64,000 nucleotides of DNA from Thioalkalivibrio sp. ALJ16 (GTDB taxonomy: Bacteria > Pseudomonadota > Gammaproteobacteria > Ectothiorhodospirales > Ectothiorhodospiraceae): positions 1-64,000 of the forward strand of contig NZ_KB898049.1 in the NCBI RefSeq assembly GCF_000377345.1, written 5' to 3'. The translations under genes and the position numbers were made by a program. Positions 30,028 through 43,110 of the stretch are shown in pieces (the stretch's first letter is position 1; every line of letters starts with the position of its first letter). The notes beneath the pieces were generated by a model, which worked only from the letters and a program-made list of their open reading frames with translations, searched no databases and was not told the origin of the DNA.

Positions 30028-31347
30028 ATGACGAAGAGCAACGAGAACGGACATCTTATGCATACGCTTCCCGCGCTGGATGAAGTCACCATTGGGGTCA
30101 TCGGTCTTGGGTACGTCGGCCTGCCGCTGGCCGTCGAATTCGGACACCACTGGCCCACCATCGGATTCGATATCGACCCGGAACGGGTGCAACAGCTGCG
30201 GGCCGGGGTGGATCGCACGCGCGAGGTGGAGTCGGACAAGCTGGCGGCTACGCCGAAGCTGACGTACACCTCGGACCTGGAGGCGATGCGGGCCTGCAAC
30301 GTGTTTGTGGTGACGGTGCCGACCCCCATCGACCGGCACAAGCGCCCGGACCTCGGGCCGCTGCTCGGGGCCAGCCGCAGCGTGGGGCGGGTGCTCAAGC
30401 CGGGGGACACGGTGATCTACGAGTCCACCGTGTATCCGGGCGCCACGGAGGAGGATTGCGTGCCAATCCTCGAGGCGGAGTCCGGTCTGGTGCACAACCA
30501 GGATTTCTTTACCGGCTACAGCCCCGAGCGCATCAACCCGGGGGACAAGGAGCATGGGGTGACCTCCATCATGAAGGTCACGTCCGGCTCCACGCCGGAG
30601 GTGGCCGATTTCGTCGACGCGCTGTACGCACGGGTGATCACCGCCGGTACGCACAAGGCCGAGAGCATCCGCGTGGCCGAGGCCGCCAAGGTGATCGAGA
30701 ACACCCAGCGCGACGTGAACATCGCGCTGATCAACGAGCTGGCGCTGCTGTTCGAGCGCCTGGGCCTGGATACGGAGGCGGTGCTGAAGGCGGCCGGGAC
30801 CAAGTGGAACTTCCTGCCGTTCCGCCCCGGGCTGGTGGGTGGCCACTGCATCGGCGTGGACCCGTACTACCTGACCCACAAGGCGCAGGCGGTGGGGCAC
30901 CACCCGGAGATGATCCTCGCCGGGCGGCGTGTGAACGACTCGATGGGCGCCCACATCGCGGACAACACGGTGCGGGCGCTGGTGCGCAAGGGTATCAACC
31001 CGGTGGGCGCGCGCATCCTGGTGATGGGGCTGACCTTCAAGGAAAACTGCCCCGACCTGCGCAACACCCGCGTGATCGATATCCACGCCACCCTGGCCGG
31101 CTACAACGCCGAGGTGACCGTGTTCGACCCCTGGGTGGACCCGGCCGAGGCCGAGCACGAGTACGGCATTACCCCGGTGACCGAGACCCCGGGCCCGGGG
31201 CAGTTCGATGCGATCATCGTCGCCGTGCCGCACCGCGAGTTCCTGCAAATGGGTATCGATGCGATCCGCGCGCTGGCACGTCCGCAGTCGGTGATCTTCG
31301 ACGTGAAATCAGTCTTCCCGCGCGCGGCAACCGACCTGCGGCTCTAA
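30028..31347 (+). CDS. UDP-N-acetylhexosamine 6-dehydrogenase, TviB/WbpO-like
   Basis: A 439-residue UDP-sugar dehydrogenase. The NAD Rossmann motif is [17 protein letters not shown] (about residues 22-38). The central domain has [16 protein letters not shown] and the catalytic Cys in [15 protein letters not shown] (about Cys274), with conserved Lys/Asn nearby ([17 protein letters not shown]). The C-terminal UDP-binding domain has [16 protein letters not shown]-type sequence. The SPERINPGD signature fits the branch acting on UDP-GalNAc or UDP-GlcNAc (TviB, WbpO) rather than UDP-glucose. The product would be an acidic N-acetylated uronate sugar for the EPS, consistent with pyruvylation and epimerase-type neighbours. 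Confidence 0.9.
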
Positions 31348-31670: not shown

Positions 31671-34600
31671 TTGAGTGCCCGCGACCCCATGCCGGAACCG
31701 CTGTCGCTGCGCACCTGTGCGCTGTGGGCCTGGTTGTCGCTGGGGGCGGCGATCTACCTGACCCTGCTTCCGTTCGAGTTTGGCAGTGTCACGCTCGAAC
31801 AGGCCTGGGACACCTACCGCAACATGAGCCTGTCTGGCCCCGGTACGAGCGGTCGCCAGCAGTTCATGGCCAACGCGCTGATGTTCATGCCGCTGGGGTT
31901 CTTCTGGGTGGCCTGGCTGACCCATGGCCATCGCAGCGGGCCCCGGGCGGTGGGCGTTGTGGTGCTGGTGTCGATGCTCGGGCTGCTGGTTACGGCCAGC
32001 GTGGAGTTTCTGCAGGTGTGGCTGCCGTACCGGCACCCGGCGGCGGCCGATATTGCCGGCAACTTCTCCGGAGCCGTGGCGGGCGCGCTGGCCTGGCTGG
32101 CGTTGCGCAACCCGCTGCTGCGCTGGCGCCGGGTGCTGGAGGACGCGGGCGCGCGGGCGCTGGCCGGCGGGCTGGTGGCCTATGCGGTGGCCTACGTGCT
32201 GGTGGGGCTGGTCCCCTTCGATCTGGTGCTGGCGGCCGACGAGCTGCAGGCCCGACTGGCGTCCGACGCCTGGGGCTGGTGGGTCGCGCCGGGTGCCTGC
32301 ACCGGCGGGCTCCGCTGCATCAGCTGGCTGGCGCTGGAGGGGATGGTCAGCATCCCGGTCGGGCTCCTGCTGGCCCTGTGGCTGCATCGGCGCGGGGCCT
32401 CGGTGCTGGCGGCGGGCATCCCGCTGGCCCTGGCGCTGGCGGCGCTGCTGGAACTGCTGAACCTGCTGACCCTGTCGGGTATCGCCGAGGGCCGCTCGGT
32501 GCTGCTGCGGGCCCTGGGGATGGGGGCCGGCCTGGTCCTGTACCGCCATCTGCCGACGCATCCGCATGTGGTCATCCGGGCGCTGCAGCGCTATGCGACG
32601 CCCGGGCTTGTGATTGCGGGGGCCGGGTATGCGCTGCTGCTGGTGGCGCTGAACCATGGCTTCGGCGCGTTTCATGCCGATGTGGAGGCGGCCCGCGCGC
32701 AGTGGGCCGAGCTGAACCTGTGGCCGTTCTATTACCACTACCACGTGGACGAGATCCACGCCCTGCGCAGTACCGCGCTGCATCTGGCCATGTACGCGCC
32801 GCTCGGGGCGCTGGTCTGGTGGTGGCAGCTGCGTCAGCCGCTGCAGCCGGCCGCCCTGAACCTGCTGGCGGTGGTCGCGGGGGCCGTGCTGGCTCTGAGC
32901 GTAGAGTCGGCCAAACTGTTCGTGGAGGGTGCCCGCCCGGACCCGGCGAGCCTGGTCCTGGCCGGGCTGGCGGCCTGGGCCATGGCCGCGCTCCTGCAGT
33001 GGCTGAGTCGGGCGAGCACTCCTGGCACGGCCGGTGTCGAATCGAACGCGGTGCCCGTGACGCGCCCGAATGGTCCGATGTCGTCCGGGCCGGGCCACCC
33101 GCCAAGTGCGCTGCAGCGGCTGCGCCAGGGCCTGGGCGGCTTGCTGGCGCTGGGGGCCTTACTGCTGGCGGTAACCTGGCCGGTGGTGCCCGTGCTGTTG
33201 AGTGCCGGTCTGCTGGCCTACGCCGCGCTACTGGCCTGGCGCCCGCAGGCCTGGTTGCTGGTGATCCCGGTGCTGCTGGGCACGCTGGATCTCACGCTTT
33301 ACCACGGGCGCCTGTTCGTCTCCGAGCTGGATCTGTTCCTGGTGATGACCGTGGCCGTGGGTCTCTGGCTTGGGCCTCATGCCCGGCATGCCGGCGCCCT
33401 GCTGCCGCGCGCGATCGTCTGGCCGCTGGCTCTGCTGTTGGTATCCACCCTGATCAGCCTGGTGATCGCGCTGGTTCCACCCGGGGGCTGGAACCCCGGC
33501 GCGGCGGTGCACTTTGCGCACGAATGGAACGCCCTGCGGGTCGCCAAGGGGCTGCTGTGGGCGGTGGTCCTGCTGGCCATGCTGCGCGTGGCCCCCCTGT
33601 CGGTGCGCGAGCAGGTCACCCGCTGGTTCCTCCCGGGCGTGGCCCTGGCCCTGCTGGCACAGCTGGCCTTCGTGGTGCGCGAACGGATCACCTACCCCGG
33701 GCTGCTGGATTTCGACAGCGGCTACCGGCTCTCCGGCCTGTTCTCGGAGATGCAGGCCGGTGGCCCCAGTATCGAGAGCTTTCTGGTGCTGGCCTTTCCG
33801 CTGGCCCTGGTCTGGTGCTGGCGGCAGCGTCCCGGCCTGATGCTCGCGGGCACCGCCGTACTGGCGCTGGGGACGGCCTACGCGGTCGCAATGACCTATT
33901 CCCGCGGCGGTTACCTCGGTCTGGCGGTGGCCGTGGCCATCCTGTTGTTCGGAGTGGTACTGGCCACAGTGGCCGGGCGCGCGCGCCCGGGCCGCGGCGC
34001 GGTAGTGGGCGTGCTGCTGCCGCTGGTGGCGATAGCCGTGGTGGCGGGCACCACGCTGGGCGGTTTCGCCGAACAGCGTCTGGGCCAGATCGAGCGCGAC
34101 TTCGGCACCCGGGCAGACCACTGGCGCGAGGCCCTGGAGTTGCCGGGTGGTGGTCCTCTGGCCGTATTTCTGGGACGGGGCGTGGGCAGTTTCCCCGAGC
34201 ACTACCGCACGGGCAACCGCGATGGACTTGTGCCCGCGAATTTCGCCTTCACCCGCGAAGAAGGTGAGCCGCGCCTGCAGATCGGGGGAGGGGATTCGCT
34301 GTTCGTGAACCAGCGCGTGCGTCTGCCGCGCGACGGTCAGTACACCGCGACCGTGCGGATAGCCGGTGCCGAGGCCGCTGGCTTTCGGGTGTTTGTCTGC
34401 GAGAAGCCGATCCGGCATTCGTTCGCCTGTCGCAGTGAAGGGATGCGTCTGGAAGAGGATGGGCGCGAGTCCTTCCAGTGGCGTTTCGATCTGGAGCCGA
34501 TGGAGCCGCGCCGGTGGCCGTTCCAGCGCGGGCTGGTGCTATCCCTGGCGGTCGATGCGCGGCAGCCGTCTGTCGTCGAATTTTACAGTGTGCAGATCCG

Positions 34601-34994
34601 CGATTCGGAGGGCCGTGAATATGTGGCCAATGCCGATTTCCGACAGTTGGGGCGGCACTGGTATTTCACGACGGATCACCTTCGCCCGTGGCGGGTCGAG
34701 AACCAGTGGCTGGAGATCTACTTCGACCAAGGCGGGCTCGGCCTGCTGGCCTTCGTTTGGCTGACACTGGCCGCCCTGGCCCTGCTGATACGGCGCGGGC
34801 TGAGGGGCGATGCAGTGGCGCTGGCCATGGCGGCCGCGCTGGCGGGGGCATTGTCGATTGGCCTGTTCAGTACGTTGTTCTTCTCGCCGCGCATCGCGCT
34901 GTTGTTTTATCTGACGCTGTTGCTGGGTGTGGCGTCGGCGCCGCTGCGTGCCGTATCCCCTTCCGTGGCGGTCGACCGGGACCGCATTGGTTAG
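31671..34994 (+). CDS. giant VanZ-VanZ-O-antigen ligase fusion membrane protein
   Basis: About 1107 residues (1101 if ATG 31689 is the start). Residues about 15-135 are VanZ-like (TLLPFEFGSV; NALMFMPLGFFWVAWLTHGH; FLQVWLPYRHPAAADIAGN). A second VanZ-like module lies at about 325-440 (LNLWPFYYHYHVDEIHALRS; LAMYAPLGALVWWWQL). Residues about 480-850 form an O-antigen-ligase/Wzy-type core with many helices and TYSRGGYLGLAVAVAI at about 742. A soluble beta-rich insert (about 865-1010) precedes two last helices. It is likely an inner-membrane polymerase or ligase with an extracytoplasmic sensor or sugar-binding insert. This size is about twice a normal ligase. TTG 31671 is preferred for coupling to the small ORF; the start is uncertain. 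Confidence 0.82.
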   Translation: MSARDPMPEPLSLRTCALWAWLSLGAAIYLTLLPFEFGSVTLEQAWDTYRNMSLSGPGTSGRQQFMANALMFMPLGFFWVAWLTHGHRSGPRAVGVVVLVSMLGLLVTASVEFLQVWLPYRHPAAADIAGNFSGAVAGALAWLALRNPLLRWRRVLEDAGARALAGGLVAYAVAYVLVGLVPFDLVLAADELQARLASDAWGWWVAPGACTGGLRCISWLALEGMVSIPVGLLLALWLHRRGASVLAAGIPLALALAALLELLNLLTLSGIAEGRSVLLRALGMGAGLVLYRHLPTHPHVVIRALQRYATPGLVIAGAGYALLLVALNHGFGAFHADVEAARAQWAELNLWPFYYHYHVDEIHALRSTALHLAMYAPLGALVWWWQLRQPLQPAALNLLAVVAGAVLALSVESAKLFVEGARPDPASLVLAGLAAWAMAALLQWLSRASTPGTAGVESNAVPVTRPNGPMSSGPGHPPSALQRLRQGLGGLLALGALLLAVTWPVVPVLLSAGLLAYAALLAWRPQAWLLVIPVLLGTLDLTLYHGRLFVSELDLFLVMTVAVGLWLGPHARHAGALLPRAIVWPLALLLVSTLISLVIALVPPGGWNPGAAVHFAHEWNALRVAKGLLWAVVLLAMLRVAPLSVREQVTRWFLPGVALALLAQLAFVVRERITYPGLLDFDSGYRLSGLFSEMQAGGPSIESFLVLAFPLALVWCWRQRPGLMLAGTAVLALGTAYAVAMTYSRGGYLGLAVAVAILLFGVVLATVAGRARPGRGAVVGVLLPLVAIAVVAGTTLGGFAEQRLGQIERDFGTRADHWREALELPGGGPLAVFLGRGVGSFPEHYRTGNRDGLVPANFAFTREEGEPRLQIGGGDSLFVNQRVRLPRDGQYTATVRIAGAEAAGFRVFVCEKPIRHSFACRSEGMRLEEDGRESFQWRFDLEPMEPRRWPFQRGLVLSLAVDARQPSVVEFYSVQIRDSEGREYVANADFRQLGRHWYFTTDHLRPWRVENQWLEIYFDQGGLGLLAFVWLTLAALALLIRRGLRGDAVALAMAAALAGALSIGLFSTLFFSPRIALLFYLTLLLGVASAPLRAVSPSVAVDRDRIG

Positions 34995-35181: not shown

Positions 35182-35197
35182 TGGCATTGGGGTTGCT
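35182..35197 (+). promoter_or_regulatory. sigma-54-type -24/-12 promoter of the PEP-CTERM gene
   Basis: TGGCATTGGGGTTGCT fits TGGCAyr-N4-TTGCw: the GG at 35183-35184 and GC at 35195-35196 are 12 bases apart, and the -12 box TTGCT is perfect. It lies 50 bases upstream of ATG 35247 in a 252-base gene-free spacer. It shares 14 of 16 bases with the site at 37779. RpoN control with the PrsK/PrsR two-component system is known for PEP-CTERM genes in other proteobacteria. Confidence 0.72.
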
Positions 35198-35246
35198 TGC
35201 CACCGTCTGCACACCCCAAGGCCCAACGACCCAAGGTGAAACCTAT

Positions 35247-36002
35247 ATGAAACATGCATTTGCGATGGTGCCGCTGGCATTGCTGTCCCTGTCCGTGCAC
35301 GCCGCCACGGTGGACCCTTCCTTTGACGAATTCGGCGAACTGCCTGACGCTACCTTTGGCGGCAGCGGCATCCCCAATGATGCGGTCGCACAAAGTTTCT
35401 TCGAGACCGCGGAGGCGCCCGGCGTGCTCGGTCTGTCCGCGACCCAGCGTTTCGATGCGCCGGAGGTGACCAACGACGGCGCGGGGACCTACTTCGTCCA
35501 GCCAGGGGTCGGTGACCCGGATTACGATTCGGACTTTGGGTCCGGACTGTCTTTCTGGAACTTCAATTTCTACATAGACCCTGGCGCTGGTTTCCTGGCG
35601 GGCGCGCCGCTGACCTTCGAGCTGTACTTCGAGACCGTGCCCGGCCAGATCAGCACGTTGCAGCTGGGACCGCTGGAAGGGGTCACGGAGACCTCCCAGA
35701 ACCTGGGTTTCAACTGGCTGAACGATCTGGCAAGCGCCGAGGGCAATGATCCGTTCGACCCCTTCGCGGAGGGCGTCTACAGCTTCGGGCTTGCGGCGTA
35801 CGCCGATCGCTCGGAGGAGGTGGAACCGTTTGCGACCACCCAGCAGGTCGACTCACCGCTGGTCGCCGAGACCTGGATCAATGTGCAGGTGGGGGATCCG
35901 ACTGAGGTATCCGAGCCGGGCAGCGCCTGGATGCTGGGTACCGGCCTGGGCGTGCTCGCATTGGTGGCCTGGGGCGCCGGCCGCCGCCGCTCCGGCGCCT
36001 GA
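35247..36002 (+). CDS. PEP-CTERM domain exported protein
   Basis: A 251-residue protein. Signal peptide MKHAFAMVPLALLSLSVHAA with cleavage near residue 20; acidic, Asp/Gly/Phe-rich mature region without Cys. The C-terminal sorting signal is EVSEPGSAWMLGTGLGVLAL, then VAWGAGRRR: an EPGS variant of the PEP motif at residues 223-226, a transmembrane helix and an Arg cluster. Exosortase XrtA is expected to cut at the PEP-like site. ATG 35247 starts right at the signal peptide; the frame upstream to 35187 is not signal-like. It stands alone between a sigma-54-type promoter and a strong terminator, so it is a monocistronic target of the sorting system. The mature function is unknown. Confidence 0.9.
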   Translation: MKHAFAMVPLALLSLSVHAATVDPSFDEFGELPDATFGGSGIPNDAVAQSFFETAEAPGVLGLSATQRFDAPEVTNDGAGTYFVQPGVGDPDYDSDFGSGLSFWNFNFYIDPGAGFLAGAPLTFELYFETVPGQISTLQLGPLEGVTETSQNLGFNWLNDLASAEGNDPFDPFAEGVYSFGLAAYADRSEEVEPFATTQQVDSPLVAETWINVQVGDPTEVSEPGSAWMLGTGLGVLALVAWGAGRRRSGA

Positions 36003-37666: not shown

Positions 37667-37778
37667 GTCGGGCCGACTGTCGGAAAACTTTCCAGTTGTG
37701 GTCCCGCCTGCGGCGAATTTCTCCATCCGAGCGGAGGGTGGCCCTCGATATCAGTTACTTATCCGTTATCCGGGGAGA

Positions 37779-37794
37779 TGGCATCGGGCTTGCT
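37779..37794 (+). promoter_or_regulatory. sigma-54-type -24/-12 promoter of the Tat Cys-rich protein gene
   Basis: TGGCATCGGGCTTGCT keeps the -24 TGGCA and -12 TTGCT cores with the consensus spacing. It is nearly identical to the PEP-CTERM promoter at 35182 (differences at two positions). ATG 37913 lies about 119 bases downstream, leaving a leader of roughly 105 bases. No coding frame of quality overlaps it; the frame from 37778 starts inside it and is rejected. Confidence 0.72.
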
Positions 37795-37912
37795 AAAGTT
37801 TAGTGAGAAGCGTCTGATTACCGTGTATCCCCGGAATCGCGGCTATTGTCGGCGTGTCCGGGGCCTCGGTACGGAAGGGCGCAATGCCGGGGACGGACCT
37901 GGAGCAGAAGAC

Positions 37913-38686
37913 ATGAGCGACGAACACGACCAAGACCCACGCCACGGCCATGAGGGTGACGAGCGGCCTGCCGCGTCTGCGGATCGGGACGAGGCCTCTG
38001 CCGCCCCCCGCAGCCGGACCCGGCGGCGCCTGGCCACGGCCGGTCTGGGCGGGGCGATGCTGGTATCGCTTCCGGCCAAGTCGGTCTGGGGTGCCCAGGG
38101 GCAGTGCTCGCTGTCGGGCAACATCTTCTCCGCCAACGTCTCCAACATCGATCACGAATGCACCGAGGGCGATGGCTGCACCCCGGGGTTCTGGAAGAAC
38201 AACTGGTTTGCCTGGGACTGCACGGGCTACTCCCCGGGGACCTGTCACCAGACCAACCCGCCTGGCAATAACTGCCGGCGCTTTGATGCCACGGTGCACC
38301 GCGGCGGCGCGACCTCGTTCGAGTCGGTATTCGGGTACAAGCCGGAGTGTCTGGGGGGGACGCCCTCGCTGATGGAGGTGCTCCAGGCCAGTGGCACATG
38401 CAGCGGCTCGCTGGATTGGCACGCGGTGGGTGCCGTACTGAACGCGGCCTGCACCTCGATCGACTTTGGCGCCTCGGTCGACGAGGTCGTCAAGGCCTAT
38501 TCGATGGCCCGGGATGACGCGGACAAGTACGCGGCGGTGAAGAACGTCTTCGTCTACATGAACGAGCGTTACTGTCCGATCAATAGCCAGGGCGACTGCG
38601 AAGATGGGTACTCGCGCAACGAGATGGGCCAGTGCGTAGAGGTTCGGACGTCTACTTCGCGCAACCACGGCCAGCAGGATCGTTGA
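37913..38686 (+). CDS. Tat-type exported Cys-rich protein with CTPGFWKNN motif
   Basis: A 257-residue protein. A hydrophilic N-terminus of 34 residues precedes a Tat-like signal (SRTRRRLATAGLGGAMLVSL, residues 34-53; likely cleavage near residue 61). The mature part has 12 cysteines (65, 83, 89, 103, 111, 121, 146, 163, 180, 221, 229, 241) and the motif GDGCTPGFWKNNWFAWDC at 86-103. The even number of Cys and the Tat route suggest a protein folded and oxidised, or loaded with a cofactor, before or after export. Start ATG 37913 has GGAG 8 bases upstream. The gene is followed by the PqqD-like/HprK-like/nucleotidyltransferase genes and is the likely client of that system (inference). The exact function of the CTPGFWKN family is not known to me. 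Confidence 0.8.
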   Translation: MSDEHDQDPRHGHEGDERPAASADRDEASAAPRSRTRRRLATAGLGGAMLVSLPAKSVWGAQGQCSLSGNIFSANVSNIDHECTEGDGCTPGFWKNNWFAWDCTGYSPGTCHQTNPPGNNCRRFDATVHRGGATSFESVFGYKPECLGGTPSLMEVLQASGTCSGSLDWHAVGAVLNAACTSIDFGASVDEVVKAYSMARDDADKYAAVKNVFVYMNERYCPINSQGDCEDGYSRNEMGQCVEVRTSTSRNHGQQDR

Positions 38687-38707
38687 TGGTCCCGTCGCCG
38701 TGTCGCT

Positions 38708-39046
38708 ATGGCGCTTCCCCGGCCTTTGCGAAGCGGGGTCTCGTTGACCGCTTCTGAAGCTCCCCTTGAACTGATCTCCCTGCCCCCCGGCCATGTGCGG
38801 GTGTGGGGCGACTCCGTCGCTTTGTATGACTCGCGCTGTGGCGAGACGCACGTGCTGCAGCCCCCCCTGACCGATATCTTTTGTGCCCTGCGCCAGGGCC
38901 CTATGACGCCAGCCGCCGTGTTCGAGTACCTTGAACAGCGCTATGACGCCACGGAAGAAGAGCTGGAGAACGCGATGCAGGCCGGCCTGAGTCAGTTGCG
39001 GGAGCATTACCTGATCTGTGATCCGGCGGACTCGCGGGACGCGTGA
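38708..39046 (+). CDS. HPr-rel-A system PqqD-family protein
   Basis: A 112-residue protein (about 100 if TTG 38744 is used). Residues about 25-105 form a PqqD-like winged domain: RVWGDSVALYDSRCGETHVL, then PAAVFEYLEQRYDATEEELE and a C-terminal QLREHYLI. PqqD-like proteins bind peptide leaders and hand them to modifying enzymes. In the HPr-rel-A arrangement a PqqD-like protein always sits beside HprK-related kinase A. Its stop overlaps the kinase GTG by 4 bases. No peptide precursor was found, so the partner may be the Cys-rich protein upstream. Confidence 0.85.
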   Translation: MALPRPLRSGVSLTASEAPLELISLPPGHVRVWGDSVALYDSRCGETHVLQPPLTDIFCALRQGPMTPAAVFEYLEQRYDATEEELENAMQAGLSQLREHYLICDPADSRDA

Positions 39047-39948
39047 CAGCCCCGGAAGACCTGCGCGCGGGACTGCGCGGCGCCGGGGTGGCCCTTCAGG
39101 TGGGTCCGTTCGTGGTCCGGCTGCGTTCGCGGCTGGACCGGGTCGAACGCGCGCTGGCCCTGTTCTACGACCGGCAGTTGCTGCCGCCGGAACAGACGGC
39201 GTTTGCCGATTTTCACATCACGCTCGCACGGGCCTCCGGCCTGCACTGGCTCTGGCGCCCGCAGGCACGATTCTTTCTCGACGGGCGTTCGCCGTTTCGC
39301 CCGCTCCCGCTGGCCCACGCCTACCCGTTGTTCGAGTGGGGGTTGAACTGGTGCATCGCCCAGCATGCCCACGACTTTCTGATGATCCACGCGGCGGTGC
39401 TGGAACGCGACGGGCAGGCGCTGGTGATGCCGGGTGAGCCAGGTGCGGGCAAGAGCACCCTGACCGCGGCGCTGACCCTGTCGGGCTGGCGATTGTTGTC
39501 GGACGAATTTGCCCTGCTCGCACTCAAGAGTGGAAAGCTGGTCGCACTGCCGCGCCCGGTCAGCCTGAAAAATGCCGCCATCGATCTGATCCGGGAGCGG
39601 TATCCGCAGGCGGTGATCGGCCCCGCCTCGCATGACACCAGCAAGGGCACGGTCGCGCATCTCAGACCTACGGATACCAGCATCGAGCGGATGCAGGCCC
39701 CGGCGCGACCGGCCTGGCTGGTGTTCCCGCGGTTCACTCCGGGCGGGCGGGACCAGCTGCAACCCCTGGCGCCGGCCGAGGCCCTGCAACGGCTGATCGG
39801 CGCCTCCTTCAATTACAGCGTGGTGGGCGGCGCGGGTTTCGAGGCGGCGGCGGACCTGATCGAACAGAGCGCGTGCATGCAGCTGGAATATGCAGATCTG
39901 GATGTCACCCTCGGGCTTCTGAACGGCCTGCGCGAGGGCGGCCCGTGA
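39043..39948 (+). CDS. HprK-related kinase A
   Basis: A 301-residue protein related to the C-terminal kinase/phosphorylase domain of HprK. Walker A is MPGEPGAGKSTLTAAL (about residues 129-144). A conserved Asp-Glu pair follows in WRLLSDEFALLAL, as in HprK where it binds Mg and the substrate serine. The classic HPr serine-loop partner is not encoded nearby. GTG start at 39043 overlaps the PqqD-like gene; the gene overlaps the nucleotidyltransferase by 4 bases. Cytoplasmic. Function in the HPr-rel-A system is not established; peptide or protein phosphorylation is inferred from the fold. Confidence 0.88.
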   Translation: MTAPEDLRAGLRGAGVALQVGPFVVRLRSRLDRVERALALFYDRQLLPPEQTAFADFHITLARASGLHWLWRPQARFFLDGRSPFRPLPLAHAYPLFEWGLNWCIAQHAHDFLMIHAAVLERDGQALVMPGEPGAGKSTLTAALTLSGWRLLSDEFALLALKSGKLVALPRPVSLKNAAIDLIRERYPQAVIGPASHDTSKGTVAHLRPTDTSIERMQAPARPAWLVFPRFTPGGRDQLQPLAPAEALQRLIGASFNYSVVGGAGFEAAADLIEQSACMQLEYADLDVTLGLLNGLREGGP

Positions 39949-41054
39949 ACGCGCAGCTCACACTGACCCGGCTGGTCACGATACTGCGCGACCCGGGGGC
40001 GGTCCGTGATCTGTCGCTCGCGGACTGGGATCTGCTGGTACGGCTCGCGCGCGTGGCCTCGCTGGAAGGGCGGCTGCAGGCCGTGATCAAGGCGGCCGGC
40101 GTGCTGTCGGAGGTTCCCCCGGCGCCGCGGCGCCATCTGGATGCGGCGTGCACCCTGGCCGATCGCCAGCACACCATGCTGCGGTGGGAGGTGGCGCGGA
40201 TTCACGAGGCGCTGGCCGGCGCGGGCATCCCGGTGCTGCTGCTGAAGGGGGGCGCCTACGTGATGGCCGGGTTGCCCTGCGCTCCGGGGCGGCAGTTTTC
40301 CGACCTGGATGTGATGGTCCCGCAGCCACAGCTGCAGACGGCGGAGCAGCATCTGTTCGTGCACGGCTGGGTGTGCGAGGGCTACGATGCCTACGACCAG
40401 ACCTACTACCGCCGCTGGATGCACGAGTTGCCGCCGCTGACCCATATGCGGCGCAAGAGCGTTCTGGACGTACATCACACCATCCTGCCGCCCACCGCGC
40501 GCCTGCGGCCGGACCCGCAGAAACTGTGGTCGGCGGCGGTTCCCCTGGACGGCTTCCCCGGTCTGCATGTGCTGGCGCCGACGGATATGGTCCTGCACAG
40601 TGCGACCCACCTGTTTCATGACGGCGAGCTGGAGAACGGCCTGCGCGATCTGGTCGACCTGGATGCGCTGCTGCGGCACTTCGCCGAACGCGACCCGGGG
40701 TTCTGGGAACAGCTGACCGCGCGCGCCTTCGAGATGGATCTGGCGCGTCCGCTGTACTACGCGCTGCGCTACGGTCGCGAGTTCCTGGCGACTCCGGTCC
40801 CCGATTCGGTCTATGTGCGCCTCGCCCCGGCGCGGCCCGCCGCCCCGTTGCGTGCGGTGATGGATGCCCTTTTCCGCCGCGGTCTCCGGCCCCACCACTG
40901 GAGCTGCGACGGGCCGTTATCCGGCACCGCGCGCTGGTGGTTGTACGTGCGCTCGCATTATCTGCGCATGCCTCTGCGCCTGCTGCTGCCGCATCTGGTG
41001 CGCAAGGCGATCAAGGAGCGCCGCGCCGGCAAGAGGGAGCAGCCGGAACCCTGA
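39945..41054 (+). CDS. nucleotidyltransferase family protein of the HPr-rel-A cluster
   Basis: A 369-residue protein with the nucleotidyltransferase core at about residues 80-125: HEALAGAGIPVLLLKGGAYV, then GRQFSDLDVMVPQP, whose two Asp residues form the metal site. The pattern fits the NTP_transf_5 family. The remainder is helical with a His/Asp-rich stretch (VLHSATHLFHDGELENGLRD) and basic C-terminus. GTG 39945 overlaps the kinase stop; the longer frame from 39873 is rejected. Could transfer NMP to a protein or sugar (inference). Last gene of the four-gene set; 67 bases separate it from convergent DNA. Confidence 0.82.
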   Translation: MNAQLTLTRLVTILRDPGAVRDLSLADWDLLVRLARVASLEGRLQAVIKAAGVLSEVPPAPRRHLDAACTLADRQHTMLRWEVARIHEALAGAGIPVLLLKGGAYVMAGLPCAPGRQFSDLDVMVPQPQLQTAEQHLFVHGWVCEGYDAYDQTYYRRWMHELPPLTHMRRKSVLDVHHTILPPTARLRPDPQKLWSAAVPLDGFPGLHVLAPTDMVLHSATHLFHDGELENGLRDLVDLDALLRHFAERDPGFWEQLTARAFEMDLARPLYYALRYGREFLATPVPDSVYVRLAPARPAAPLRAVMDALFRRGLRPHHWSCDGPLSGTARWWLYVRSHYLRMPLRLLLPHLVRKAIKERRAGKREQPEP

Positions 41055-42147: not shown

Positions 42148-42990
42148 TTACCGGTCCTGGTAGCGGGCCAGCAGGGGTCGTATACGGTCGGCCGGTATCG
42201 CGTAACTGATACCGCTGGGCTGCTGGATCGCCGCTTCGCGCCCGGCCTGGACGAAGACCTGGTTGATGACGGCGACCACCTCGCCGCTGTCGATGCGATA
42301 GACCGGGCTGCCGCTGTTGCCGGGATAGGCGGTGGCGTCCAGCTGGAACACCATCGGTGCGCCACTGCGCAGCTGGCGGATGCGTGCCTCGCTCAGTTCG
42401 CCCGAGTGCCGGGCCGGGATCGCCATGGGCGTGCGGGCCGCCACGCTGGCGCGGTGGGTGGCCGGATACACCCCCAGGATCATCCCGATCGGGTACCCGG
42501 TAAAGGCCAGCTGCTCGCCGTCCCGCACCCCATCCGACGACCCCAGGCGCAGCGGGGTCAGGGCCGGTTCGCCGATCCGCAACAGGGCAAGGTCGTCACT
42601 CTCCGAGTGCGCAACCAGTTCCGCGCTGTGGATGGTGGTGTCGCGGCCCTCGCCGCTGACCACCACCAGCTGTTCGCGGTTCTCGTGATCGAGGGATGAC
42701 GGGATCACATGGTGATTGGTCACCACCAGACGGCCGTCGCCCACGGCGAACCCGGTGGCCAGGTAGTTGGCCCGCGGGCTGCGCGAGGGCTGGAAGGTCG
42801 CGACGCTGACCACCGCGGGCTTGATGCGCTCGATGGTGTCCGGGAGCGTGTCGGCGGCGACGGGGGCGAGCCCCGGGAATCCGGCCAGCAGGCATATCCC
42901 GGCCAGTACCAGCCAACGTCTGGTGGTGCCCGCCCGGCCGCGGGTAGTGCGCCCGAAGGCGCCACGGTCTGTGCCTGTCGTCGTGTTCAT
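42148..42990 (-). CDS. exported trypsin-like serine protease (S1C, DegP-type catalytic domain)
   Basis: A 280-residue protein. Signal segment TTRRWLVLAGICLLAGFPGLAPVAAD precedes a trypsin-like domain with catalytic His in VVTNHHVIPSS, Asp in SESDDLALLRIG and Ser in YPGNSGSPVYR, all intact. There is no PDZ domain, so it is shorter than DegP/DegS. It is expected in the periplasm. ATG 42990 has GGGGGT about 8 bases upstream; the longer frame to 43053 is rejected. Substrate unknown. Confidence 0.87.
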   Translation of the reverse strand: MNTTTGTDRGAFGRTTRGRAGTTRRWLVLAGICLLAGFPGLAPVAADTLPDTIERIKPAVVSVATFQPSRSPRANYLATGFAVGDGRLVVTNHHVIPSSLDHENREQLVVVSGEGRDTTIHSAELVAHSESDDLALLRIGEPALTPLRLGSSDGVRDGEQLAFTGYPIGMILGVYPATHRASVAARTPMAIPARHSGELSEARIRQLRSGAPMVFQLDATAYPGNSGSPVYRIDSGEVVAVINQVFVQAGREAAIQQPSGISYAIPADRIRPLLARYQDR

Positions 42991-43110
42991 CTGGCTACCC
43001 CCGCGCCTGAAAGACTTCGAGTCTAGGCCAGGTGTTTTCCGGCGTCGCGCCACTGCGTTAGCCGGCCGGATGGCCGGCCGTGGACCTGCTAACGCCTTCG
43101 TCGGGCGGGG

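Follow-up and report, generated by a model that had tools for sequence, protein, structure and literature searches.

A twin-arginine leader protein with a conserved serine motif as a likely client of the HPr-rel-A kinase set

The available excerpts of the reports on phosphorylated and phosphoglycosylated lasso peptides, such as paeninodin and pseudomycoidin, describe a PqqD-type leader binder, an HprK homologue that phosphorylates a serine, and a nucleotidyltransferase that adds one or two hexoses, and the locus studied here has counterparts of all three. The HPr-rel-A set is a second close relative, and its models TIGR04352 and TIGR04353 describe the kinase and carrier only, with no client. 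A PF14907 nucleotidyltransferase is, we presume, counted as part of the HPr-rel-A definition. SynChlorMet (ScmC) and HprK-related kinase B cassettes, which also have HprK-related kinases, probably handle peptides. No target of kinase A or of its PqqD-like partner was found in the open-licence literature. In this study, we analyzed a 64,000-nucleotide stretch of DNA (the window) that carries such a set behind a gene for a putatively exported protein, and we propose a client family and a serine motif for HPr-rel-A, with two residues named as candidates for modification. We put the probability that the exported protein is a dedicated substrate of the PqqD-kinase-nucleotidyltransferase set at roughly 0.72. 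The gene content, a near-total association across genomes, the position of the PqqD-like gene beside the client when cassettes are split, the conserved serines, and the intact active-site residues together argue for one system.

The model that we favor gives the client leader a double role, in which it would be a twin-arginine export signal and, at the same time, the docking site for the PqqD-like protein. The PqqD-like protein would bind this leader and hand the precursor to kinase A, which would phosphorylate one of two serines (S68 or S73) located where a flexible segment separates the leader from the folded domain. The nucleotidyltransferase would then add to the phosphoserine, a sugar or a nucleotide being the likeliest addition, and the modified client would be exported via Tat, after which signal peptidase would cut off the leader. 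Leader binding, phosphorylation, the second step, Tat export, and the order of these events are what we infer; the roles of the kinase and the nucleotidyltransferase are modelled on phosphoglycosylated lasso peptides because the two enzymes act in this way there, as far as the available parts of those reports go. The likeness has limits. The lasso B2 leader protease and the asparagine-synthetase-like cyclase were not among the 11 window proteins scanned, and the clients here are mostly about 130 to 290 amino acids (aa) long with a twin-arginine leader. In addition, the client serine is internal or near, but not at, the C terminus, class 2 clients included, a difference that we draw from the excerpts of the lasso reports.

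The preliminary description had a twin-arginine protein with 12 Cys followed by overlapping genes for a PqqD-like protein, kinase A, and a PF14907 protein, and this layout holds at 37913 to 41054. All four genes lie on the plus strand. The client gene (37913..38686) encodes a 257-aa protein of class 1, consisting of leader, serine box, and TPGFW domain. An open frame does extend upstream to the ATG at 37778 used for the earlier form of the protein; we prefer the ATG at 37913, because 36 residues then precede the twin arginine, which fits the family better. The leader (38018..38092, residues 36 to 60) has the twin arginine R37-R38, a short hydrophobic stretch, and Lys56 ahead of the probable cleavage site. 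C-terminal to it is the serine box CSLSGNIFSANVS (38105..38143, residues 65 to 77) with the candidate modified residues S68 (38114-38116) and S73 (38129-38131), followed by the TPGFW cargo domain, predicted by the model at about residues 83 to 225 (38159..38587), in which the CTPGFWKNN motif corresponds to C89-N97. The genes for the PqqD-like protein (PqqD_rel_X, 38708..39046), the putative leader binder, for the HprK-related kinase A (39043..39948), and for the nucleotidyltransferase (39945..41054) follow, and both of their overlaps are GTGA.

The PqqD-like protein passes the curated cut-off of TIGR04353 (55.6 bits; cut-off, 35) and is borderline with PF05402 (23.4 bits; cut-off, 23.4). PqqD-like frames across loci were counted by an iterated profile, which places one upstream of the kinase at all but one of the 121 loci examined (120/121; 80 of these loci being the best 80 of 310 relatives). 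No PqqD was found by this profile in locus L157, and the Vibrio locus L223 was missed by it, with a short unannotated frame sitting in the gap. Since the profile misses L223 and finds none in L157 and none beside the client in L242, the count of 0/5 for a PqqD beside the kinase in split cassettes (see below) could hide a divergent gene. Kinase A exceeds the TIGR04352 cut-off of 200 with 382.5 bits, and matches the ScmC and kinase B models weakly, far under their cut-offs (22 versus 125 and 20 versus 200 bits). In an alignment with HprK 1jb1 and 2qmh (E, 5e-4), its His, Walker A, and acidic positions coincide with theirs, the P-loop core of the HprK/PEP carboxykinase (PEPCK) superfamily with its His, Walker A, and acidic pair is present, and H116, K137, D154, and E155 are invariant in 40/40. 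Lasso kinases are described, in the text available, with His-Lys-Asp-Asp and kinase A has His-Lys-Asp-Glu, where the match of the Asp through the HprK alignment is our own reading. The kinase A model (pLDDT, 95) has a PEPCK/HprK-type fold and, unlike HPr kinase/phosphorylase, aligns as a whole with PEPCK (1ii2; 284 residues, Z 16.8, rmsd 4.8), the N-terminal part included; PF07475 stays under its cut-off (12.8 versus 33.3 bits). Foldseek returned HprK chains from rank 34, and VIA-align had no HprK chain among the 50 matches listed, which we do not count against kinship with HprK.

The nucleotidyltransferase matches PF14907 (E, 1e-62), and relatives of it occur in 39/40 first-sample loci and 78/80 named loci (the best 80 of 310 relatives), in addition to the window. 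It resembles proteins of Deinococcus (E, 4e-8) whose annotation reads nucleotidyltransferase or lasso B2 protein; a PDB sequence search with it gave nothing useful. By analogy with the excerpts of the lasso-peptide reports, the best precedent for its activity would be addition of hexose to phosphoserine rather than plain NMP transfer. Transfer of NMP to phosphoserine or another residue, with no sugar involved, is a possible though less favored outcome that is compatible with the core explanation. The motif K101-G102 ... R116 ... D120-x-D122, invariant in 116/116, speaks for it, and in the lasso example, as available, nucleotidyl transfer followed by the action of a host glycosyltransferase remained possible. 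The one relative described as tested in those same excerpts gave hexoses, however, and GalE, found in 15/40 first-sample and 9/80 named loci (24/120 in all; the named loci being the best 80 of 310 relatives), weakly hints at sugar donors.

What marks the client family is a distinctive leader together with a serine motif. In class 1, the motif CxxSGxxS(G/A)NxS lies C-terminal to the leader; in class 2, CxxS lies near the C terminus in 51/54 clients, and the other 3 retain a serine there. In a 67-row class-1 alignment of the window client with the 66 of 76 named clients that reached a class-1 E of ≤1e-14 and were not among six odd ones (L148, L154, L156, L157, L158, and L166), a selection that excludes ten more distant clients, the columns of S68 and S73 (window-client numbering) are the only invariant ones. 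These columns are kept in 96/103 and 100/103 rows of a wider set and absent in 7 and 3, this set being without L057 (whose client protein is identical to that of L056), L051 (which shares its contig with L094), and L146 and L147 (leaders not located by script). The serines fall outside the folded domain, where the model has low confidence; by blocks, the client model has pLDDT values of 91 to 93 at residues 91 to 110, 58 to 64 at 111 to 130, and 89 to 97 at 131 to 220. Neither Foldseek nor VIA-align, the latter over 16 chains, matched the fold to a PDB structure, which is weak evidence at a model pLDDT of 72.6, and a PDB sequence search with the client profile gave nothing useful. Some clients consist of hardly anything beyond a leader and serine motif (L034, 74 aa; L192, 82 aa; L148, 85 aa). 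The window client, itself a training member, scores an E of 7e-52 with the class-1 profile in its own genome. It had no match in Pfam, NCBIfam, or PHROGs, barring one Pfam row far under cut-off; NCBIfam models matched 0/30 class-1 and 0/9 class-2 clients, PHROGs matched none of the four cassette proteins at an E of 1e-3, and the client is annotated "hypothetical protein" in two annotated plasmids.

The preliminary description had stressed the 12 Cys and the CTPGFW motif of the exported protein, and neither survives as a mark of the family. Cys richness is peculiar to this member, with just C65 and C83 near-invariant among the 67 selected class-1 clients, and TPGxW is found upstream in only 12/41 first-sample loci, the family being wider. 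Leaderless proteins, which are probably secreted, carry the TPG(F/Y)W domain as well, and most of their genomes lack kinase A: where TPGYW-domain matches lack leader and box, kinase A is over cut-off in 1/5 genomes and, in the phylum sample, in 0/3. We thus rejected the Cys-rich/CTPGFW part as a mark of the system; by sequence comparison, the part of the client linked to the kinase is the leader plus serine box.

The association of this family with kinase A was counted in several sets. The first sample has 41 kinase A loci. The named set comes from a search with the kinase alignment, because the client alignment has no sufficiently conserved stretch, and comprises the best 80 of the 310 relatives that were confirmed; the two make 121 loci, in which first-sample and named loci may coincide. 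A client lies in the cassette at 120 of the 121 (named part, best 80 of 310 relatives), and the remaining locus is cut by a contig end: 40/41 in the first sample, with the exception ending at a contig edge, and 80/80 among the named loci (best 80 of 310), 76 upstream and 4 downstream of the nucleotidyltransferase. The leader profile, built from 146/148 clients, gave 120 matches at an E of <1e-3 against 18,640 reading frames of the 121 loci (named part again the best 80 of 310). Of these matches, 114 occupy the client position, and the remaining 6 are the downstream clients, which lay outside the training set. For both the class-1 and the leader profiles, most loci that entered the counts had also supplied training sequences, the exceptions including these 6 and several second-sample clients. 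A second sample took 56 of 57 new loci (G524, its kinase split over contig ends, was left out) and has the client in the cassette in 49, on another contig in 5, at a contig edge in 1, and none in 1, namely, locus L222 of G564, where PqqD and kinase are present and no client was recognized in the stretch fetched. L215 of this sample, with a leader E of 0.12 and a CFASL motif at the C-terminal end, was assigned by visual inspection and is outside the scripted class-2 count. In the phylum sample, after removal of four kinase-positive genomes common to the first sample, kinase A was over cut-off in 25/26 genomes with a leader-bearing client match versus 57/394 overall (one-sided Fisher p, 1e-22). 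The client-kinase A association is far above chance, which is evidence of genes belonging together and not of what reacts with what. A kinase tree was made without L051, L057, and L204, with client labels assigned by hand and ten rows lacking one. The co-occurrence on which the preliminary description had staked its proposal is thus near total, and, along with the split cassettes, it supports the view that the exported protein is the previously missing client of the HPr-rel-A set.

In five split cassettes, the client is on a different contig from the kinase, and PqqD adjoins the client in four and the kinase in none; in the fifth, L242, no PqqD was found beside the client by the iterated profile. 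Tat redox enzymes have dedicated export chaperones, and the PqqD-like protein could be one for the client, while the kinase and nucleotidyltransferase act elsewhere, for example, on a sugar or lipid that subsequently tethers the client to the surface. We regard this as improbable. That split cassettes keep PqqD with the client and not the kinase suits it, as do the GalE genes counted above and, elsewhere in the window, a UDP-sugar dehydrogenase gene (30028-31347) and a VanZ-family gene (31671-34994), all of which would fit sugar chemistry. Client and kinase co-occur even on separate contigs, however, the most conserved client residues are serines in the low-confidence stretch and not in the folded domain, and HprK-type kinases of lasso clusters, in the available excerpts, phosphorylate the peptide itself.

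The leader itself is probably a Tat export signal. Tat signals have a twin arginine, a basic residue near the cleavage site, and A or G at -1. The leader family has RR ahead of a hydrophobic stretch in 144/146, along with a T/S-L motif, and R or K just ahead of the probable cleavage site in 74/146; in 134/146, the probable -1 residue is A or G. Against the leader profile, the median score of client leaders is 38.6 bits, versus ≤14.5 for 15 loci with Tat signals in the genome of the window. The top score among these, 14.5 bits, belongs to the ordinary Tat signal L234, with an E of 4e-4 obtained in a small set. The window client had no match to TIGR01409, the general Tat model, at an E of ≤1. 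A leader that serves for recognition only, as in modified peptides, with its arginine pair used in PqqD binding and export independent of Tat, would suit this negative result and the stronger conservation of the hydrophobic and cleavage parts relative to ordinary Tat signals, but it is unlikely given the Tat features counted above and the related small peptides that reach Tat models, albeit under cut-off.

If a dedicated client is confirmed, the locus would join leader-guided peptide tailoring with Tat protein export, two fields that seldom meet, and the short leader-plus-serine tag might be transferable to other proteins. In its broadest form, for which we see about even odds, HPr-rel-A would be a widespread proteobacterial pathway of protein modification and export, in which an export signal doubles as a PqqD-type recognition leader for whole proteins and small peptides, serine phosphorylation and then glycosyl or nucleotidyl extension precede Tat, and cargo is exchangeable behind a fixed leader-plus-serine tag.

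Among neighboring genes, protease, GalE, GAF, and methyltransferase were considered as core parts, and this is unsupported, similar genes being found in 40, 24, 8, and 3 of 120 loci. The trypsin-like protease gene of the window (42148..43053, minus strand; PF13365 E, 7e-23) is a frequent cassette neighbor of uncertain membership; similar proteases occur in 17/40 first-sample and 23/80 named loci (best 80 of 310 relatives), and the protease may be an accessory part.

The exported protein and the enzymes encoded beside it in the window appear to form one modification system, in which leader-guided tailoring of serines, known from lasso peptides, would be applied to exported proteins. The gene for this protein, the client (37913-38686, plus strand), encodes 257 residues with 12 Cys when read from the ATG at 37913 and lies 21 bases before a gene for a PqqD-like protein (38708-39046, plus strand; TIGR04353, 55.6 bits, cut-off 35). 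Genes for HprK-related kinase A (39043-39948, plus strand; TIGR04352, 382.5 bits, cut-off 200) and a nucleotidyltransferase (39945-41054, plus strand; PF14907, E 1e-62) follow, with GTGA at both gene overlaps. NCBIfam already names the enzyme families, and the names of those in the HPr-rel-A set rest on genome context. The client is annotated as a hypothetical protein on plasmids of Sphingomonas parapaucimobilis and Vibrio alfacsensis. In the open-licence literature we found no paper on HprK-related kinase A or HPr-rel-A, and no such client by title or abstract.

The preliminary description had proposed a Cys-rich Tat protein as client of the HPr-rel-A set, to be refuted if the two did not co-occur in other genomes, and the proposal withstood this test. 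Of 369 genomes of the class, 41 have kinase A above its curated cut-off, the window's genome among them, which gave 41 surroundings (40 fetched loci and the window). When the frames were read, 40 of the 41 proved to encode a twin-arginine protein immediately ahead of the PqqD-like gene; a contig end falls at the client position in the remaining locus, L041. The exported client thus stood, and what defines it had to be redrawn: the literal TPGxW motif occurs upstream of the cassette in 12 of the 41 loci, and a leader plus a serine motif now takes its place. A kinase-alignment scan of genome contigs provided a sample of named organisms, the best 80 of 310 relatives, with hosts that include Massilia, Noviherbaspirillum, Thiobacillus, Sulfuricella, Nitrotoga, Rhodoferax, methanotrophs, some alphaproteobacteria, Malonomonas rubra and a MAG labelled Planctomycetaceae. 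All 80 have a client, upstream in 76 and downstream of the nucleotidyltransferase in L119, L125, L129 and L131, the last two with a tandem pair. When a profile of 146 leaders was run against 18,640 reading frames of 45 residues or more (121 loci, 1.66 Mb), it returned 120 matches at E < 1e-3, 114 at the upstream client position and six being the downstream clients of those four loci. It missed the clients of L061 and L126, which the class-1 alignment and profile recovered.

A second sample of 398 genomes, drawn from the phylum, contained 61 that pass the kinase cut-off, 57 of them new, and 56 loci were fetched. The client lies within the cassette in 49 of the 56, among them L182, where client and PqqD pair up on the other strand from the kinase. 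It is on a separate contig in five more genomes (G426, G438, G385, G477 and G618); locus L204 is cut, and the fetched L222 locus has no client. In these split cassettes the PqqD-like gene adjoins the client in four of five genomes (the exception is L242) and the kinase in none of the five. Hence it is the client that the carrier accompanies, as expected of a leader-binding protein. The PqqD profile had no match in the Vibrio locus L223, so divergent copies can be overlooked. A second class-1 client away from the kinase was seen at L080, in genome G296, which has another client inside its cassette.

The association was also examined in the reverse direction, by searching genomes with the class-1 profile, which matched in 47 of 369 genomes of the first sample and 33 of 398 of the second. 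Where the match included the leader (model start no later than 21), kinase A exceeded the cut-off in 36 of 42 genomes of the first sample and 29 of 30 of the second, the earlier count being in part circular, since the first sample supplied the profile; where it covered the TPGYW domain alone (model start at or after 61), the counts were 1 of 5 and 0 of 3. After removal of the 4 shared kinase-positive genomes from the second sample, kinase A exceeded its cut-off in 25 of 26 genomes with a leader-bearing match versus 57 of 394 overall (p 1e-22). The six first-sample genomes with a leader but no kinase over the cut-off (G036, G101, G184, G285, G318 and G360) show HprK-like matches that score 41-81 bits; the second sample has a single genome with a leader but no kinase over the cut-off, G450. 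This genome encodes a Cys-rich protein whose client-type leader is weak, about 1.2 kb away from a PqqD-like frame (L246:2030-3670). Leaderless TPGYW...AALLNA proteins come mostly from genomes without kinase A; in those that were read (L081-L086), the domain ends longer, probably secreted proteins that have neither leader nor serine box.

The client leader follows the consensus S-R-R-R-(L/F)-x-K-G...A-A-x-P-V-I-x-(L/M)-T-L-x-S-(R/G)-P-x-L-A, with RR in 144 of 146 leaders, T or S in 127, L in 109, S in 102, and A or G at the probable -1 position in 134. For comparison we took 15 Tat-signal loci of the window's genome (TIGR01409, E <= 10; nine over the cut-off), which scored at most 14.5 bits against the leader profile versus a client median of 38.6, a median that takes in weak second pieces. 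The leader is thus specific in its hydrophobic and cleavage parts, as it should be if some protein recognises them. PqqD-type B1 is described as a leader binder (PMC7533575), and here the PqqD-like protein would very probably bind the client leader. The window client gave no match to TIGR01409 at E 1, which counts against Tat; we nevertheless consider it likely that the client would leave by Tat after its modification.

The first-sample clients fall into class 1 (31, window included) and class 2 (9). Class-1 clients have about 185-275 residues; the RR pair is followed, in order, by C-x-x-S-G-x-x-S-(G/A)-N-x-S, another Cys, a (T/S)PG(Y/F)W-like segment and, late in the protein, LNA. An alignment of 67 of them (the window and 66 of 76 named clients, the most distant left out) has only two invariant columns, S68 and S73, while M1, RR, C65, C83, W101, A174, L176 and N177 are at least 90% conserved. 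In 103 leaders-plus-boxes, the serines are kept in 96 and 100, the Cys in 98 and the second Cys in 92. The window client model has a mean pLDDT of 46-59 at residues 51-80 versus 89-97 at 131-220, so the serine box falls in a low-confidence region, as a flexible modification site would. The nine class-2 clients (74-234 residues) share the class-1 leader and have a serine-containing C-terminal motif; C-x-x-S starts 5-20 residues from the end in 51 of 54 class-2 clients (SCWTSF, CLTSI, CFASL), and in the remaining three a serine is retained in the same surroundings. Little besides leader and serine motif is present in the clients of L034 (74 aa, core GSACISCNASLI), L192 (82 aa, ending ...ASCLDSFNGL) and L148 (85 aa, ...GGTSGNMSGG and a basic tail); the cargo is therefore interchangeable, and the leader and serine are not. 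At E 0.01, none of 30 class-1 and 9 class-2 members matched NCBIfam and none of the 30 matched Pfam; a Pfam scan of class 2, limited to L034 and L224, gave no match.

The enzymes have intact catalytic residues. H116, K137, D154 and E155 are invariant in 40 aligned kinases A, with the Walker A loop, and the kinase profile finds the HprK structures 1jb1 and 2qmh (E 5e-4), in which the His, Walker A and acidic-pair positions line up. Structural alignment of the kinase A model (md01c3daec3a7, pLDDT 95.1) with PEP carboxykinase 1ii2 (Z 16.8, rmsd 4.8) covers 284 of 301 residues, nearly the whole length, as if the kinase had a shortened PEPCK-type fold; Foldseek also matched HprK 3tqf (E 3.4e-4). 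In the nucleotidyltransferase, K101-G102, R116, D120 and D122 are invariant in 116 of 116, and Deinococcus proteins annotated as nucleotidyltransferase or lasso B2 protein resemble the window enzyme (E 4e-8). On a FastTree kinase tree of 174 rows (115 class 1, 49 class 2), client class changes twice versus 35-48 times in 100 shuffles and is therefore inherited with the kinase, an agreement that organism kinship alone could cause.

Lasso peptides offer the precedent. According to two reviews (PMC8498205 and PMC9266682), paeninodin is phosphorylated on its C-terminal serine by an HprK homologue, relatives of that kinase add several phosphates, and pseudomycoidin acquires a phosphoserine carrying one or two hexoses through the kinase PsmK and nucleotidyltransferase PsmN; a nucleotidyl transfer, with a host enzyme acting afterwards, is not excluded there. 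By analogy, the window cassette may perform the same chemistry. We put at about three in four the probability that kinase A phosphorylates S68 or S73; that the nucleotidyltransferase would then add a sugar has an even chance, and addition of a nucleotide is a tentative alternative.

The class-1 profile also picked up small peptides (57-87 residues) in which Gly-Ser comes after a similar twin-arginine leader (SRRQFLKTTAYVAPAILTLKAAPALAQCGS...), up to three per locus (L071-L079; for example, L072:6656-7885, L074:7476-7700 and L075:6140-7013), mostly in genomes with only sub-cut-off kinases. L071, L072 and L074 have a PqqD-like gene and a sub-cut-off HprK-like kinase close to the peptides, L074 a PF14907 gene as well, and L073 and L076 have an HprK-like kinase; neither a PqqD-like gene nor such a kinase was identified in the fetched stretches of L075 and L077-L079. 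The peptides may represent a smaller form of the system.

A trypsin-like protease gene (42148-43053) is a frequent neighbour of the cassette, with similar genes in 17 of the 40 and 23 of the 80 loci fetched (40 of 120 in all); as a guess, the protease may process the product outside the cell. Upstream of the cassette, 35187-36002 encodes a protein whose tail has weak, below-cut-off PEP-CTERM family matches, and 31671-34994 a 1107-residue protein with VanZ-like segments and a below-cut-off O-antigen-ligase match. GalE (UDP-glucose 4-epimerase) is found near the cassette in 24 of 120 fetched loci (for example, L055:6837-7835), which hints at a galactose-type sugar donor.
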